NCBI GenBank assembly: GCA_000299115.1
Contig: CP003801.1
Coordinates: 372,001 to 436,000 of the forward strand
Origin: an alpha proteobacterium HIMB59
GTDB taxonomy: Bacteria; Pseudomonadota; Alphaproteobacteria; HIMB59
Reading direction: 5' to 3'
Length of the DNA stretch: 64,000 nt
The translations under genes were made by a program, and so were the position numbers. Positions 8,363 to 15,367 of the stretch are shown one piece after another (positions within the stretch are counted from its first letter, which is position 1; the number at the start of each line of letters is the position of its first letter). The notes below the pieces were generated by a model that was not told where the DNA came from, did no database searches, and saw nothing but the letters and a program-made list of their open reading frames with translations.

Positions 8363-9301
8363 GTGCTTAAAAAAATCGTAACAGCAAAACACCGAGGTTT
8401 TTGTGCGGGAGTTGACCGAGCTGTTGAAATTGTTGAGAAAAGTTTAGTTAAATACGGTGCACCAGTCTATGTGCGCCATGAGATTGTCCATAATAAGTTT
8501 GTTGTTCATAATTTAAAAGAAAAGGGAGTTATCTTTGTGGAGTCTTTAGATGAAATTCCACAAGGAACCAAACAACCTGTGATCTTTTCAGCTCACGGAG
8601 TTGCCAAAAGGGTAATTGAAAAAGCGAAAGATTATAATTTACAATTTTATGATGCTATCTGTCCTCTTGTGAGCAAAATTCATAAAGAAATTATTCTATT
8701 AGAAACACAGGGATACCAAATCATTATGATTGGCCATGAAGGTCATCCAGAAGTTGAGGGAACAGCAGGACAACTCCAAGACATCAGTAAGTTAACTCTG
8801 GTTCAAGAATTAAATGATGTTGAAAAATTATATTTTCCCTCTGATCAAAAAATAGCTTACATCACTCAAACAACTCTATCTGTATTTGATACACAGGAAA
8901 TAGTTGATGCTTTAGAAAAGAAGTTCCCTGAAATTTTAGCCCCTAAGAAATCAGATATTTGTTATGCAACTTCAAATCGTCAAACTTCTGTTCAGGAGAT
9001 AGCCAAAAATGTGGATGCTTTTTTTGTGATTGGTGCTTTTAATAGTTCTAATTCAATTCGTCTTGTTGAGACAGCTAAAAAATTTGGATGCGAAGATAGT
9101 GAATTAATTGAAAATATAGATGATTTTGATTATCAAAAATTAAATCAGTATCAATCAATAGGACTGACCGCCAGTGCATCAGCACCAGAGGAACAATTAA
9201 ATTTATTCATTGATCGAGTAAGAGAGAATTTTAGTCCAGAAGTAATTGATTTTAAAGAAGATGAAAATATTGTCTTCAAAGTACCCAATTTCCTTAATTA
9301 A
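8363..9301 (+). CDS. ispH: 4-hydroxy-3-methylbut-2-enyl diphosphate reductase
   Basis: IspH (LytB) makes IPP and DMAPP in the last step of the MEP pathway using a 4Fe-4S cluster. The three cluster cysteines are seen in HRGFCAGVDRA, DAICPLVSKIH and SDICYATSNRQ. GHEGHPEVEGT and the SNSIRL substrate-binding stretch are also present. The start is a GTG at 8363; the conserved LKKIVTAKHRGFCAG immediately follows, so no longer N-terminus is needed. It overlaps the convergent blh gene by eight bases. Sitting next to the carotenoid genes, it supplies the C5 units for retinal, although the gene is essential in its own right. Confidence 0.97.
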   Translation: MLKKIVTAKHRGFCAGVDRAVEIVEKSLVKYGAPVYVRHEIVHNKFVVHNLKEKGVIFVESLDEIPQGTKQPVIFSAHGVAKRVIEKAKDYNLQFYDAICPLVSKIHKEIILLETQGYQIIMIGHEGHPEVEGTAGQLQDISKLTLVQELNDVEKLYFPSDQKIAYITQTTLSVFDTQEIVDALEKKFPEILAPKKSDICYATSNRQTSVQEIAKNVDAFFVIGAFNSSNSIRLVETAKKFGCEDSELIENIDDFDYQKLNQYQSIGLTASASAPEEQLNLFIDRVRENFSPEVIDFKEDENIVFKVPNFLN

Positions 9302-10109
9302 ATTTTTTCCTATAAAAAAAATCAATTAAAGTCATGTGGGGTAATGTTAAGGCTGCCAAACCAATAAAAATAGTTTTAATAAAAGACTCGGAAAAAGAAA
9401 AATTATCATTCAAATAAATTATGGCGATACAACCGCCAATCCAAGTGATCAGAGTAAAAATTGCTGTCGTGGTAAAGACAAACTTTCTATTTTCTAAATA
9501 TTTATTTGTATTTTTTAATATTGCATAAACATGCTTAGTCGTATGCACAAAACAAAAATACAATGCAAAGCCCGTTAAAGGATCGAGTTGAGAGACTATA
9601 AAAAGAATGGAAATCATCTCTAAAATTCCCCACCTTAGTTTTTTTAAATTAATAGATAGATAGCAATATACCAAAAACAAAATTCCAAATAAGAAATAAG
9701 CTAAAAAAAGATATTGCTCAAAAAATATAAAGTTATCATTAGATAAAAATGTAAAAATTTGAAATGACTCCTTAGTATGAAAAAAAATTATTCCAAAAAT
9801 AATATTGAATCCGTGGGTAAAAGAAATAATCCATTTAAATTGATTCACTTTTAAAAAAGACCAGTCACATAATCCAAAATGAATAACGCTCATGATAATA
9901 AATAAAAGCAATGCAATTAAGGGAAACTTAATCCAGAAAAAGATGACTGCTATAGAGATGATGGTGTACCAAAAAGTAAAAGTTAAGAATCTTTTTTTCG
10001 ATTGATATCCTAATAGAGCTGCGACCGCACCATCAAAAGATCCATGAGGCACTCCGATAAAGGATACCAAACATAAAGCAATTAAAGATATTATACTTAA
10101 CTCATACAT
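9294..10109 (-). CDS. blh: Beta-carotene 15,15'-dioxygenase, Brp/Blh family
   Basis: Blh cleaves beta-carotene into two retinal molecules, the chromophore of proteorhodopsin. The 271-aa protein is almost entirely hydrophobic helices. The four conserved histidine sites that bind iron are visible: PHGSFD (H22), VIHFG (H76), THGFN (H98) and FVHTTKH (H188, H192). Its ATG overlaps the end of crtY by eight bases, marking it as the last gene of the minus-strand carotenoid operon. The 3' end runs eight bases into ispH on the other strand. The assignment rests on His pattern plus context and is strong. Confidence 0.94.
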   Translation of the reverse strand: MYELSIISLIALCLVSFIGVPHGSFDGAVAALLGYQSKKRFLTFTFWYTIISIAVIFFWIKFPLIALLLFIIMSVIHFGLCDWSFLKVNQFKWIISFTHGFNIIFGIIFFHTKESFQIFTFLSNDNFIFFEQYLFLAYFLFGILFLVYCYLSINLKKLRWGILEMISILFIVSQLDPLTGFALYFCFVHTTKHVYAILKNTNKYLENRKFVFTTTAIFTLITWIGGCIAIIYLNDNFSFSESFIKTIFIGLAALTLPHMTLIDFFYRKKFN

Positions 10110-11184
10110 TTTTACTCAAAGTGGAATTGATGAAGCTTTTTAAAAAACCAATCTTTGGCATTGCAAAGATTGTTTTTAATTTAGTTGAAAATTTTGCATT
10201 GCCCATCATAAAGGAACCAAATTCCTCTCCGCTCAACTTTTTAGCCATTTTCATAAAAATTTCATCAGATTTACTATTATTTTCAAGGTATTTTACAAAT
10301 ATTTTATCCATCCATTTATCCCAATAAGAGTGATAATCGCTTTTTTCAGAGGTTAATTGTTTTAAGAAAAAGGAAAAAGCATACCCAGAGGATATTTTTG
10401 TGGCACCTCCTTTGGCGCCAATCTGGATATAATTATCATCATTCTGTGAATTAACTTCAAACATCGGAAGGACCCCTTGTTCAGTATCAATAATTTCATA
10501 TTTTTTTATTCCAAGGTTATTTTCAACATAAGTTGAAATTTGATTTTGGTACCATCTTGAATCCAATAAAAATTTCGAGAATACGGTGGACTCTACTAAA
10601 AGACGCGTATCATCCAAAGGAAGTAGATATATGAAGTGGAGCCCCTGATCTTGTGTAACACGAAAATCCATTAATCGCGCGTTTTTAATTTGATGCGCCT
10701 CTTCGATTGAGATTATATTTCCAATAAAGTGTTGTTTAAGTCCATCATTTTCCATAGCTACTGATCGACTATCATAAATTTTTTTAGAATAAACTTTCTC
10801 TTGGTTATCAAGAGTGATTTCAAAAAAATCATTATTTTTTTTAATTTTACTCACATTATTTTCTTTAAACGAAATATTATGAGTCTCTTCTAAACAAAAC
10901 TTTTTCCAATCTTGATATCGTATTACACAATATGGAGAGATAATACTTTCATGAGTTATTTTTTGTTGCTGGTAATAAAATTCCCATTTGATCCATTGAT
11001 TTTTTATAAGGTTTTTAAATGGACTCATCCAGTCTGTCATCCAGAATGCAAAAAAATTATCTCTAGGGCTATTGAAGTTTTTATCAATTCCAATAATTGA
11101 GCAAGCCTGATTATGATATTTTAATTTATAGGTTCCAAGAGCGCTGGCCCCCATTCCAACAAAGGCAATATCATAAATTTTCAT
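10102..11184 (-). CDS. crtY: Lycopene beta-cyclase
   Basis: CrtY converts lycopene to beta-carotene. The 360-aa protein has an N-terminal FAD-binding segment, IAFVGMGASALG, the family motif FRVTQDQGLHFIYLLPLD with LVESTVFS after it, and EQGVLPMF and GAKGGATKISSGYAF in the C-terminal half. It overlaps crtB by 14 bases and blh by eight, so the four genes are probably translated as one coupled unit. There is no sign of a ketolase or hydroxylase nearby, so beta-carotene should go straight to cleavage. Confidence 0.93.
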   Translation of the reverse strand: MKIYDIAFVGMGASALGTYKLKYHNQACSIIGIDKNFNSPRDNFFAFWMTDWMSPFKNLIKNQWIKWEFYYQQQKITHESIISPYCVIRYQDWKKFCLEETHNISFKENNVSKIKKNNDFFEITLDNQEKVYSKKIYDSRSVAMENDGLKQHFIGNIISIEEAHQIKNARLMDFRVTQDQGLHFIYLLPLDDTRLLVESTVFSKFLLDSRWYQNQISTYVENNLGIKKYEIIDTEQGVLPMFEVNSQNDDNYIQIGAKGGATKISSGYAFSFFLKQLTSEKSDYHSYWDKWMDKIFVKYLENNSKSDEIFMKMAKKLSGEEFGSFMMGNAKFSTKLKTIFAMPKIGFLKSFINSTLSKNV

Positions 11185-12043
11185 TTTGAAAACTTTCTCT
11201 TATTGGTGTGTAGGACCTGTATATCCTTTTTAAAAATATAAATTCAGGTAATGATTTAATTGTGACCCACAGTTTATTAAATTTATTAAGGTAAACTCTT
11301 TTATTTGAATATTGATATTGATTACTTTTAATTTTCATACCTATACCCCGATAAATTTTGGCAGCAAAAAAAATTGCCAATCTTGTCTTTATAGGAATAT
11401 ACTTCATCCCGCTAAAACCGTTTTGATAATAAACCTCTGACAAATCAATGAGTTTTTTTATAATTATGCTCATTTGTGACTGAATTTGTTGAATTGAGTT
11501 GCTTGTTAGCTGTTCAATGGAAATATCCTTCAACCATTCTTTGGGTAAATAAACACGATTCATGGTTGCATCCTCATAGATATCTCTTGCAATATTAGTC
11601 AATTGCATCGCAATACCAAGATCTACGGCATGTTTATTGGCTTCTTTATTATTAACTAAGATCAAAGGTTGCATCATTAATCCGACTGTACCAGCCACTT
11701 GGTAGGAATATTCAATTAAATCTCTTTCTGTTTCTATTCTGACTAATTTTTGATCTTTAATTAATCCTTGGATGAGGTCGCCTAAAACTTGAATAGAAAT
11801 ATTATTATTTTTAAAAAACTTATTTATCGGGTGTTCAGCTCTATTACAAATTTGTTCAAATTCCTCTTTTAACTTCTCAGATTGATCAGTGGAGGTTTCG
11901 TCTGCTAAATCATCAAAATATCTACATATACTATAGAGTTCAGATGCAGCATCCTTGCTCTTATTAGGTAAAAAAAAACTTGCCCAATAAAAACTTTTAC
12001 CATGGTTCTCTAGTGATTGAGGATCATAAGAATAGATAGTCAA
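11171..12043 (-). CDS. crtB: Phytoene synthase
   Basis: CrtB joins two GGPP molecules head-to-head to give phytoene. At 290 aa it has the usual length. The two Asp-rich Mg-diphosphate sites are YSICRYFDDLADE (about residues 37-49) and NIARDIYEDATMNRVYLP (about 150-167), the second matching the phytoene synthase signature. It lies one base from the crtI stop and overlaps crtY downstream. Squalene synthase-like relatives can look similar, but the crtI/crtY context settles the role. Confidence 0.95.
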   Translation of the reverse strand: MTIYSYDPQSLENHGKSFYWASFFLPNKSKDAASELYSICRYFDDLADETSTDQSEKLKEEFEQICNRAEHPINKFFKNNNISIQVLGDLIQGLIKDQKLVRIETERDLIEYSYQVAGTVGLMMQPLILVNNKEANKHAVDLGIAMQLTNIARDIYEDATMNRVYLPKEWLKDISIEQLTSNSIQQIQSQMSIIIKKLIDLSEVYYQNGFSGMKYIPIKTRLAIFFAAKIYRGIGMKIKSNQYQYSNKRVYLNKFNKLWVTIKSLPEFIFLKRIYRSYTPIRESFQNENL

Positions 12044-12044
12044 T

Positions 12045-13532
12045 TTAATTTAGTTGAAAATCTTTTTTAATTAATTTTTCTACAACCTTTGCTGAACAAA
12101 GTACACCGGGTATACCGGCACCAGGATGAGACCCAGCTGTTGAAAAATAAAGTTTAGATATTTTTTTATCTTTATTGTGATATCGAAACCAAGCTGATTG
12201 TGAAAAAATTGGTGCAATAGAAAAACCAGCTCCGTGCATTGATCTATAGTCATTTTTGAAATCTTTGGGTGTCATCCAAAAATCAGCTTCAATATTTTTA
12301 TCTAAATCAGGCATGATTGTTTCACTCAGCGCTTTGACTATTTTGTCTTTTAATAAAGGGCCTTCTTTATCCCAATCGACAGGTGCCTGCAGATTGGGTA
12401 CAGGGCATAACACATAAAAGCTATCCTTTCCAGAAGGTGCAAAGGTTTCATCAGTTGCGGTAGGTCGATGTAAATAAAGAGAAAAATCCTCTGTTAATAT
12501 TTTATTCTCAAAGATGTCTTTTAATAAATCTTTATACCGTTCTGCCATCCAAATTGTATGGTGCGCTACAGATGGATATTTTTTCTTACTACCAAAAAAT
12601 AAAACATACAAACCCATCGAGTACTGAGTAAGCTTTTCAGGTTTGATCAGGGGATTTTTTCCATAATTGCCATCAAGCATTTCATTGTAAACTGTTGGCG
12701 GGTCCGCATTACAAATAACAGCATCTGCATGTAATTCTTCTCCATTTTTAATTTTTATTCCCACAGCCTTGTCTTTTTCGACTAGTATTTTCTCTACATC
12801 TGCATTTTTTTTAATTTCGATACCTGTTTCTCGCATTAATTTTTCTAGTTCATGAACGATCTTTCCTGTGCCCCCCATACAAAAGAATACGCCCCATTTT
12901 CTCTCTAAATAATGGATGAGGGCATAAATCGAGGTCGTTGTGAAAGGATTCCCCCCTACTAACAAAGGATGAATAGAAAAGGCTTTTCTTAAATACTCGT
13001 TTTTAAGCTTACTATTTACTAGTTGACTGACGGTAAGATAGCTTTTGAGTTTCAATAGCGAGGGTATTTGTTTCACCATCTCCCAAAAAGATGAAAAGGG
13101 TTTGTCTGATAATTTCTCAAAACCAATTTGAAAAATATCTTTTGATGTCTTTAAAAGTTTTTCATATCCTTCAACATCTCTTTCATCGAATTTTCTAATT
13201 TCAGCATTGGTGTCTTCTATAGAGGGTCGGTAGTCAAATGTCTTGCCATTATGAAAGTAAAATCGATACCAAGGATCTAAGGGAACAAAATTTAGATGAT
13301 CACTTAACTTTTTTCCATATAGCTCATACAGTTCCTCAAATAAAAAAGGTGCAGTTATTACTGTTGGGCCCGCATCATGACGATACCCTTCTTTTTGAAA
13401 AACTCGAGCACGTCCTCCCAAAGTATCTAGTCTTTCAACTAGAGTTACCTTAAAACCAAGCTTATTGAGTCTAAGGGCAGACGCTATACCACCAAAACCA
13501 GATCCAATAACTATTGCTTTTTTATTCATCAT
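12045..13532 (-). CDS. crtI: Phytoene desaturase (lycopene-forming, CrtI type)
   Basis: CrtI introduces four double bonds into phytoene to give lycopene, using FAD. The dinucleotide fold begins at once with KKAIVIGSGFGGIASALRL, followed by ERLDTLGGRARVF and the CrtI RHDAGPTVIT motif (here YRHDAGPTV). The C-terminus has the bacterial-type desaturase signature AGSHPGAGIPGVLCSAK. Four codons upstream of 13532 are also open from an ATG at 13544. The ATG-ATG-AAT start at 13532 is preferred because it overlaps the end of the upstream 68-aa gene by only 11 bases. Length is about 495 aa, normal for the family. Confidence 0.95.
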   Translation of the reverse strand: MMNKKAIVIGSGFGGIASALRLNKLGFKVTLVERLDTLGGRARVFQKEGYRHDAGPTVITAPFLFEELYELYGKKLSDHLNFVPLDPWYRFYFHNGKTFDYRPSIEDTNAEIRKFDERDVEGYEKLLKTSKDIFQIGFEKLSDKPFSSFWEMVKQIPSLLKLKSYLTVSQLVNSKLKNEYLRKAFSIHPLLVGGNPFTTTSIYALIHYLERKWGVFFCMGGTGKIVHELEKLMRETGIEIKKNADVEKILVEKDKAVGIKIKNGEELHADAVICNADPPTVYNEMLDGNYGKNPLIKPEKLTQYSMGLYVLFFGSKKKYPSVAHHTIWMAERYKDLLKDIFENKILTEDFSLYLHRPTATDETFAPSGKDSFYVLCPVPNLQAPVDWDKEGPLLKDKIVKALSETIMPDLDKNIEADFWMTPKDFKNDYRSMHGAGFSIAPIFSQSAWFRYHNKDKKISKLYFSTAGSHPGAGIPGVLCSAKVVEKLIKKDFQLN

Positions 13533-13728
13533 CTTTGCGATCATAATTGGAACTACGAAAAACTAAAAAAGCGATAAACAACACAGCAAAAACATAAATA
13601 ATCACTACCAGCGGGCTGTTGACAAAAGCTTCATGCAATTGATCATTAGCACAAATAAAGTCCTTTTTAAAATCACCTGCAGTTTCTGATTGTTGAATTT
13701 GTTCGCAAGTTGATTGTGAGTGTTTCAT
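13522..13728 (-). CDS. Small single-helix membrane protein of the rhodopsin-carotenoid locus
   Basis: A 68-aa protein with a polar N-terminal half containing two cysteines (about residues 8 and 26), one transmembrane helix (about residues 39-58, VVIIYVFAVLFIAFLVF) and a short charged tail ending RKDDE. It is translationally coupled to the 145-aa gene before it (TAATG overlap) and overlaps the crtI start. I do not recognise a family. Its fixed place between proteorhodopsin and crtI makes a photosystem-related membrane role plausible, but that is only guilt by association. Confidence 0.65.
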   Translation of the reverse strand: MKHSQSTCEQIQQSETAGDFKKDFICANDQLHEAFVNSPLVVIIYVFAVLFIAFLVFRSSNYDRKDDE

Positions 13729-14165
13729 TAAATTAAAGTATTTGCCTTAATTATTCTTAATATGAACATGATAGTAAAATAGCCTGCATTAATCATTAAA
13801 ATAAAACCAATAAAATAGATAATTTCTTTTGGCAATTGGTCATCAAAAAACTTTACAAAGAAATTTCGTGAAAGAATAATTCCCATCTCTATGTAGAGGA
13901 TAGAGATAATTACGGCTGTAAAGATCATTAAAGTGAAGGATGAATATTGATAGATAAAGTAGTTCAAAGTGAACAAAACCAGTCCAAATAGAATGATTAG
14001 AGAAAAGCCAAAGATATTTAAGGATATATCAAAGGGTATTAATATTTTTAATTTCTCTTTATAGTTTTTTTTTAGAGCGAGTATGGCAATAAGAATTAAA
14101 ACCTCGATGAAAGTAATGATAATGAGTTTTGAAGTGAGAAGATTAGGATTGAATATCTCTTCCAT
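13728..14165 (-). CDS. Four-helix membrane protein of unknown function
   Basis: The 145-aa protein has four predicted membrane helices (about residues 12-30, 49-71, 76-98 and 114-138) and almost no large loops. The second cytoplasmic or periplasmic turn carries LPKEIIYFIGF. It has none of the retinal-binding features (no Lys in a final helix) and no recognisable catalytic motif. It is the first gene after the proteorhodopsin terminator, on the same strand, and is coupled to the 68-aa membrane protein and then crtI. Read-through from the proteorhodopsin promoter could feed this operon. Possible roles include carotenoid or retinal handling, but nothing in the sequence proves one. Confidence 0.7.
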   Translation of the reverse strand: MEEIFNPNLLTSKLIIITFIEVLILIAILALKKNYKEKLKILIPFDISLNIFGFSLIILFGLVLFTLNYFIYQYSSFTLMIFTAVIISILYIEMGIILSRNFFVKFFDDQLPKEIIYFIGFILMINAGYFTIMFILRIIKANTLI

Positions 14166-14181
14166 AAGAAAATATTAGGAC

Positions 14182-14213
14182 AAAAAAAAAGCAGGGTCCG
14201 AAGACCCTGCTTT
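14182..14213 (-). terminator. Intrinsic terminator downstream of proteorhodopsin
   Basis: On the minus strand, GCAGGGTC-TTCG-GACCCTGC is a perfect 8-bp GC-rich stem closed by a stable UUCG tetraloop and followed by nine T residues. It lies 20 bases past the proteorhodopsin stop. It should cap most proteorhodopsin transcripts and lower expression of the carotenoid operon behind it. Confidence 0.93.
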
Positions 14214-14233: not shown

Positions 14234-14986
14234 TTAAGCTTTAGATTCTACTGTTGCAACGTTCCAGATGATCACACCGAATGCAATCTTGTTTAGAACG
14301 TCAGCAAGGTTATAGATAACGTTTAGAGATTCCATGCTTGCTCCGCCTGTTAAATAACCAAAGAAATATCCTAAAGGATAAATAGCCCAACCAATTGTTA
14401 CGATCCATCTCATTGTTGAGAAAGCAGATTGAACTGAAGCAGGTGCTTTGTCAGCAGCCATTTTTCCAGCTTCACCAGCAAATACCTCATATAAGATATA
14501 TGCCCAACCAGCCATACCAACGATGAAACCAGCCCATAGGTTGATGTATCCAGCTTCACCCATATAACCACCAACTAGCATTACTAGTGTACCGATCATA
14601 AGTCTCCAGAAGATACCGCCAGAAGCACTTCCGACAGCTCTTAGGATGATGTAGAATTCAACCATCAATAATGGAACAGTGATTAGCCAGTCGATATATC
14701 TATAAACTGTTGGTGTATCGCCTGTTGCGATCCATACATCACGCATATAGAAATAGTGAACAGCAGCAACTAAAGTAACTAGACCAGATACTGTTAGTGA
14801 AGTTTTCCACTTAGCAGAAACTCTCTGAGTCTCTAAAAAGAAGAATGCTGTTGAAGCGACTAGGGCCATAGAAATCAGCCAAAATGAAATACCAACGAAA
14901 TCGTCGGATTCTAAGTTCGCAGCTGCGTTAGCGAACTGAGGTAATACCAACAATAGAGATGCTGGTAATAGGGTTTTTTTAAACAT
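14234..14986 (-). CDS. Proteorhodopsin, green-absorbing proton pump
   Basis: This 250-aa seven-helix rhodopsin begins with a cleavable signal peptide (residues 1-21, ending ANA). In helix C, RYIDWLITVPLLMVEF gives proton acceptor D99, proton donor E110 and the spectral-tuning residue L107, equivalent to Leu105, which marks green absorption. H77 in VAAVHYFY matches the His that pairs with the acceptor Asp, and K233 in NLADVLNKIAFG is the retinal Schiff-base lysine. The D/T/E pattern indicates outward proton pumping. It makes proton-motive force in light. A strong AAGGAG ribosome site lies ten bases before the ATG, and the gene ends at its own terminator, as expected for an abundant protein. 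Confidence 0.98.
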   Translation of the reverse strand: MFKKTLLPASLLLVLPQFANAAANLESDDFVGISFWLISMALVASTAFFFLETQRVSAKWKTSLTVSGLVTLVAAVHYFYMRDVWIATGDTPTVYRYIDWLITVPLLMVEFYIILRAVGSASGGIFWRLMIGTLVMLVGGYMGEAGYINLWAGFIVGMAGWAYILYEVFAGEAGKMAADKAPASVQSAFSTMRWIVTIGWAIYPLGYFFGYLTGGASMESLNVIYNLADVLNKIAFGVIIWNVATVESKA

Positions 14987-15151: not shown

Positions 15152-15367
15152 ATGGCTATATTTCAAGATTCTGTGCTTATGGGGGGGTTCTTCTTCTTCT
15201 TATCCACATATTTACTATATTTTTCAACGAAAAAAATTAGCCAATCTCAATTGCCAGAAAAAACTCGCAAAAAACTTAATGTTTTTTGTTTCGTCGTCTT
15301 TATTGCAATCGTCATTCTCATATTTGCCTACCATTCATCTCATTATATGAGTAATTTAAATGGCTGA
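15152..15367 (+). CDS. Small two-helix membrane protein upstream of GGPP synthase
   Basis: A 71-aa protein with two hydrophobic helices (about residues 7-25 and 42-61) and a basic loop between them (KKISQSQLPEKTRKK). The stop overlaps the next start as TGATG, so it is coupled to the GGPP synthase gene. I recognise no family. It is divergent from proteorhodopsin. Together with the 145-aa and 68-aa proteins it makes three small uncharacterised membrane proteins in this locus. There is no clear ribosome site in front of its ATG. Confidence 0.6.
   Translation: MAIFQDSVLMGGFFFFLSTYLLYFSTKKISQSQLPEKTRKKLNVFCFVVFIAIVILIFAYHSSHYMSNLNG

Follow-up and report, generated by a model that had tools for sequence, protein, structure and literature searches.

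A translationally coupled pair of membrane proteins between proteorhodopsin and crtI in HIMB59 and its relatives outside rhodopsin loci

We have defined an undescribed, co-inherited pair of inner-membrane proteins, X145 and Y68, in abundant ocean bacteria, where the two genes lie between proteorhodopsin (PR) and crtI; neither protein could be placed in a family by Pfam, NCBIfam, PDB or Foldseek. The pair is probably a general, perhaps metal-related, membrane module and not a set of dedicated retinal helpers, because relatives keep it elsewhere, in one family within an iron-uptake operon. This Fe(III) uptake operon provides a first functional lead, and it corrects the tempting guess that anything encoded between PR and crtI serves retinal. 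Additionally, we document that blue and green PR alleles, with accessory genes linked to them, have been exchanged in the HIMB59 group while the rest of the gene background is vertical.

The gene pair and its setting in the retinal locus

The window, the whole stretch of 64,000 nucleotides that was analysed, spans positions 372001-436000 of a single-contig genome of 1,410,127 bases (Table 1). Both reading frames of the original prediction, one of 145 aa with four helices and one of 68 aa with a single helix, were recovered. By hydropathy X145 has four transmembrane (TM) segments and Y68 a single one, and AlphaFold modelled X145 as four long helices (pLDDT 84, pTM 0.76) and Y68, at low confidence (pLDDT 67), as an amphipathic stretch and one TM helix. 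The placement of positively charged loops suggests, by the positive-inside rule, an N-out topology for both proteins.

Table 1. Features of the pair and of the surrounding retinal genes, in window coordinates
Feature	Position	Strand	Remarks
Proteorhodopsin (PR)	14234..14986	-	DTE motif, L105; green-tuned by the published rule; allele common to the three X145-Y68 genomes
Intrinsic terminator 3' of PR	14188..14213	-	11-bp stem, UUCG loop, T-run; between PR and X145
X145	13728..14165	-	145 aa, predicted four-helix inner-membrane protein; conserved E93 in TM3 and N126-x-G-Y-F-T131 in TM4
TAATG stop/start overlap, X145 to Y68	13728..13730	-	conserved in three genomes
Y68	13522..13728	-	68 aa, single TM; N-terminal extramembrane segment with C8, C26, D29 and H32
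Overlap of Y68 3' end and crtI 5' end	13522..13544	-	crtI start at 13544, 13532 or 13529; conserved in two relatives
crtI, phytoene desaturase	12045..13544	-	downstream partner in the overlap with Y68
crtB, crtY, blh	9294..12043	-	remaining retinal pathway genes, downstream

Against L070, X145 has a dN/dS ratio (Nei-Gojobori) of 0.07 and Y68 one of 0.014, with dS of at least 1.5 in each case. Thus, we conclude that both genes encode functional proteins under strong purifying selection. The AT-rich sequence is rich in chance open reading frames and neither protein has a family match, as would be expected of spurious or decaying reading frames, but the low ratios, the conserved lengths and the remote homologues in another family leave that explanation a negligible probability, and conservation already refutes it. 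The X145 stop and the Y68 start share one A, Y68 overlaps the start of crtI, and both arrangements recur in the relatives L002 and L003. The translational coupling that had been proposed for the pair, together with its overlap with crtI, is therefore kept in three genomes.

Searches of X145 and Y68 against Pfam, NCBIfam and PHROGs returned nothing above the cut-off, PDB profiles gave no match, Foldseek gave nothing significant, and no relatives were found in viral contigs, phages or plasmids. These results agree with the earlier impression that neither protein resembles a carotenoid enzyme or a rhodopsin, and by sequence or fold neither falls into a known carotenoid, rhodopsin or retinal-binding family. 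DUF4396, TMEM175 and Holin_BlyA were considered as families for X145 and rejected, as their Pfam scores lay below the curated cut-off and the best member E-values (0.0077-0.2) were not significant. A weak match of Y within a 320-aa glycosyltransferase-like protein of the genus was judged to be chance.

The locus has the same order of PR, crtI, crtB, crtY and blh, with a divergent GGPP synthase, as most other loci of the genus examined in these marine Alphaproteobacteria (HIMB59/AEGEAN-169). Only in three of the 52 same-genus genomes, which represent two lineages (HIMB59 itself, here G000, with G005 and G009), are two membrane genes added between the PR terminator and crtI; PR directly adjoins crtI, as PR-crtI-crtB-crtY-blh, in the other same-genus relatives examined. 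The flotillin-associated rhodopsin (FArhodopsin) cluster described from the same organism group likewise combines a rhodopsin with associated extra membrane protein genes (PMC10308929), but the HIMB59 locus differs from it in its DTE-L pump, its other genes and the lack of a flotillin in the annotated stretch. The HIMB59 genome carries one rhodopsin only.

The hairpin in the gap between PR and X145 has a GC-rich stem of 11 bp (-20.8 kcal/mol, z -3.2), and all other genus members examined have a terminator-like hairpin of different sequence at the corresponding position. A strong terminator here implies a closer coupling of the pair to crtIBY-blh than to PR. Thus, one continuous PR transcript that includes X145 is not a given and would require read-through; the short gap upstream of X145 may also hold a promoter. 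The assignment of the pair to the retinal operon, as first proposed, holds in part: overlap and coupling with crtI on the same strand are present in HIMB59, but PR and X145 are separated by a terminator, and co-occurrence with PR-crt clusters does not extend across relatives.

Relatives of the pair in other genomic settings

X145 belongs to a single-copy four-helix family of the order, here called X, that we have shown to have several genomic homes. Within the genus X was found in 37 of 52 genomes, one copy in each, with absence counts that are approximate given that most of these genomes are incomplete MAGs or SAGs; a second X match in G005 is weak, contains stop codons and is put down to chance. 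Beyond the three genomes with X145, the gene lies directly behind clpB in 33 of 34 X-bearing genomes, and in the remaining one the contig ends. The clpB-X138 unit, usually continued by an UptA-like VTT protein and then one of 60 aa, is not near PR, and no Y homologue was detected in the genomes that carry it. X138 is the counterpart of X145. Identity between X145 and any X138, those of close relatives included, is just 38-45%, so a recent move of X138 from the clpB locus to the PR locus was rejected.

In HIMB59 and G005 the VTT gene follows straight after clpB with no X, and the clpB locus of G009 likewise lacks X. When loci were gathered through ClpB instead of X, ten had an intact downstream region, and the three without X among them (seven had it) were the X145 genomes. 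Such an exclusion would arise by chance once in 120 cases, and it involves at least two independent lineages. The two kinds of X copy thus look mutually exclusive. Every genome with X145 lacks the clpB-linked copy, and X145 may do the job of that copy.

Other details of the clpB region were seen in passing. The HIMB59 locus (L072:4618-5365) encodes ClpB, the UptA-like VTT/DedA-type protein and the 60-aa protein, which is basic (MKKVITLEIGNSSWWKNRKYR...), conserved across the genus and unrecognised. In the assembly of G006 (L025/L153/L155), clpB is split by a frameshift or stop.

Many genomes of a second family of the order carry X in a third context, among genes for a methyltransferase, a glutamine amidotransferase and sugar-type ABC permeases, with no PR or crt genes near. 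An apparent linkage in this family, where many genomes have X some 19 kb downstream of PR, was discarded because the genes around PR are ribosomal or housekeeping genes with no crt nearby. In L135, L136, L139 and L142 of the family, PR is flanked by a plsX-ihfA-merR set on one side and by rplM-rpsI on the other. A rhodopsin is present in most genomes of the order. With the standard profile, no X turned up among 399 sampled genomes of the phylum beyond this group.

A class-wide search with the Y68 profile, a shallow one of three rows, detected homologues in another alphaproteobacterial family, f10, in four genomes from two genera (E 4e-10 to 3e-6). These proteins are 34-42% identical to Y68 (hhalign 96.8%, E 2e-10), and C8, C26, D29 and H32 of Y68 are invariant across the Y homologues. 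Each is adjoined by a multi-helix homologue of X, a remote relative (hhalign 86%, E 5e-6) that gave the best match of the X profile among 306 background open reading frames besides X145 itself (E 8e-5). A further X match in G193, on contig C9, has stops inside and was set aside as chance; the real X of that genome stands beside Y on contig C10. Y was seen only beside an X. Because a homologous pair is also present in f10, we conclude that the X-Y pair is old, and probably older than its place at the PR locus.

In f10 the two homologues lie side by side in a FutABC/FbpABC-type Fe(III) ABC transporter operon with a DUF6494 gene (PF20104), in the order FutA/FbpA-permease-ATPase-DUF6494-Y-X, with a two-domain permease and the pair at the operon end. 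The periplasmic protein matches FutA/FbpA-type Fe(III)-binding proteins, among them several solved iron-binding structures (E 1e-81 to 2e-60). The arrangement differs from that of HIMB59 in that Y precedes X and no rhodopsin or crt genes lie beside the operon; conversely, the HIMB59 pair is not within a FutABC/FbpABC operon, its context in the window being PR and crt. The DUF6494 gene of HIMB59 lies elsewhere, with no iron transporter, X or Y beside it, and no X-Y neighbour was found at DUF6494 in larger Alphaproteobacteria. DUF6494 as a fixed partner of the pair was therefore rejected.

Proteorhodopsin alleles and the role of the pair

A tree of PYC, IspH, ClpB and MetY places G009 with G011, and HIMB59 and G005 with G004, and a clade of the X145 genomes is rejected (p-AU 9e-7). 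A tree of five crt-pathway genes gives the same placement and likewise rejects that clade (p-AU 3e-5). In contrast, the PR sequences of the three genomes group together with support of 100/100, and PR synonymous divergence is 0.15 for G005 and 0.53 for G009, while that of neighbouring genes runs from about 1 to saturation. L105 occurs in the PR of these three genomes and of G008, and Q105 in all other PRs of the genus that were read; by the published tuning rule, L gives a green and Q a blue pump (PMC5864233). Taken together, the low PR divergence, the grouping of PR against the other trees and L105 lead us to conclude that the PR allele, blue or green, has passed between lineages.

The synonymous divergence of X145 and Y68 is high, as in the neighbouring genes, so neither gene moved together with PR in its latest exchange. 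The pair possibly came with an older exchange, or it is ancestral and was lost several times. G008 has the green PR and a full PR-crt-blh set, with X-Y absent and nothing between PR and crtI.

Our leading reading, which we hold tentatively, is that of an inner-membrane pair older than its place at the PR locus, a metal- or iron-linked accessory and not retinal-dedicated, that forms an allelic variant with the green PR. X145-Y68 would take over from the clpB-linked X of relatives an accessory inner-membrane task that, judging from gene context, may be linked to the uptake or sensing of a metal, most likely iron. The two cysteines, aspartate and histidine of Y could form a metal or redox site. 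At the PR locus the pair would be part of an allelic variant with the green-tuned pump, and it would be translated with crtI by way of the overlapping genes, on mRNA that comes from read-through of the PR terminator or from a weak promoter beyond it. Being expressed from the crt operon would presumably be advantageous.

An iron role is suggested by the gene neighbours in a single family, seen in four genomes of two genera, and by the four-residue motif; the clpB and second-family contexts of X carry no hint of iron. Rhodopsins are reported to help diatoms under iron limitation (PMC10627834), which makes an iron link to a rhodopsin locus conceivable. If the link proves true, the capture of light energy and the economy of iron would be connected in a way open to testing. 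In a more far-reaching version, which appears distinctly doubtful to us, X-Y would be an iron-linked module that, inserted between PR and crtI, links iron status to how the iron-free light-energy system is expressed or assembled; two separate lineages would then have gained, along with a green pump, a retinal operon coupled to iron.

The pair could instead be a passenger of the locus exchange, with an unrelated membrane function in the envelope or in stress, lying between PR and crtI on exchanged DNA and profiting from transcription there. The varied contexts of X, the clpB neighbour and UptA-like VTT gene beside it in most relatives, and the recombination signature in PR are all consistent with this; however, the overlaps of starts and stops have survived in two lineages although synonymous divergence is saturated, which argues for useful co-expression, and a Y on its own, away from any X, was never found. 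On balance we consider a passenger somewhat unlikely.

A role in delivering carotenoid or retinal to PR, or in assembling a PR complex, might have been gained after the pair entered the locus. The coupling to crtI is conserved in two non-sister lineages, X145-Y68 is present only with the green PR allele, and Y68 is under strong purifying selection, all of which favour such a role. Yet same-genus relatives, and G008 with its green PR, have complete PR-crt-blh sets with nothing between PR and crtI, and a terminator separates PR from X145. Additionally, occurrence in unrelated operons of relatives, which the original prediction had named as evidence against itself, was found in part: X stands behind clpB and in the second-family context, and X-Y in the Fe(III) operon of f10. 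We therefore regard the role as unlikely. The idea of carotenoid or retinal delivery, or of a membrane photosystem complex, has lost its main support with these settings, and is possible as a secondary role.

Other genes of the retinal locus

Two further observations concern the genes flanking the pair. In L065-L068, where the gap separates PR from crtI, crtI begins with TTG soon after a conserved TATAyTTT-like element 3' of the PR terminator, and element and start codon together hint at a promoter and a near-leaderless crtI mRNA. On the other side of PR, positions 15152-15367 encode S71, a 71-aa protein with two TM segments and no family match, whose stop overlaps the start of the GGPP synthase gene (15367). 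S71 is 38-62% conserved outside the nearest relative and stands beside the GGPP synthase in most members of the genus.
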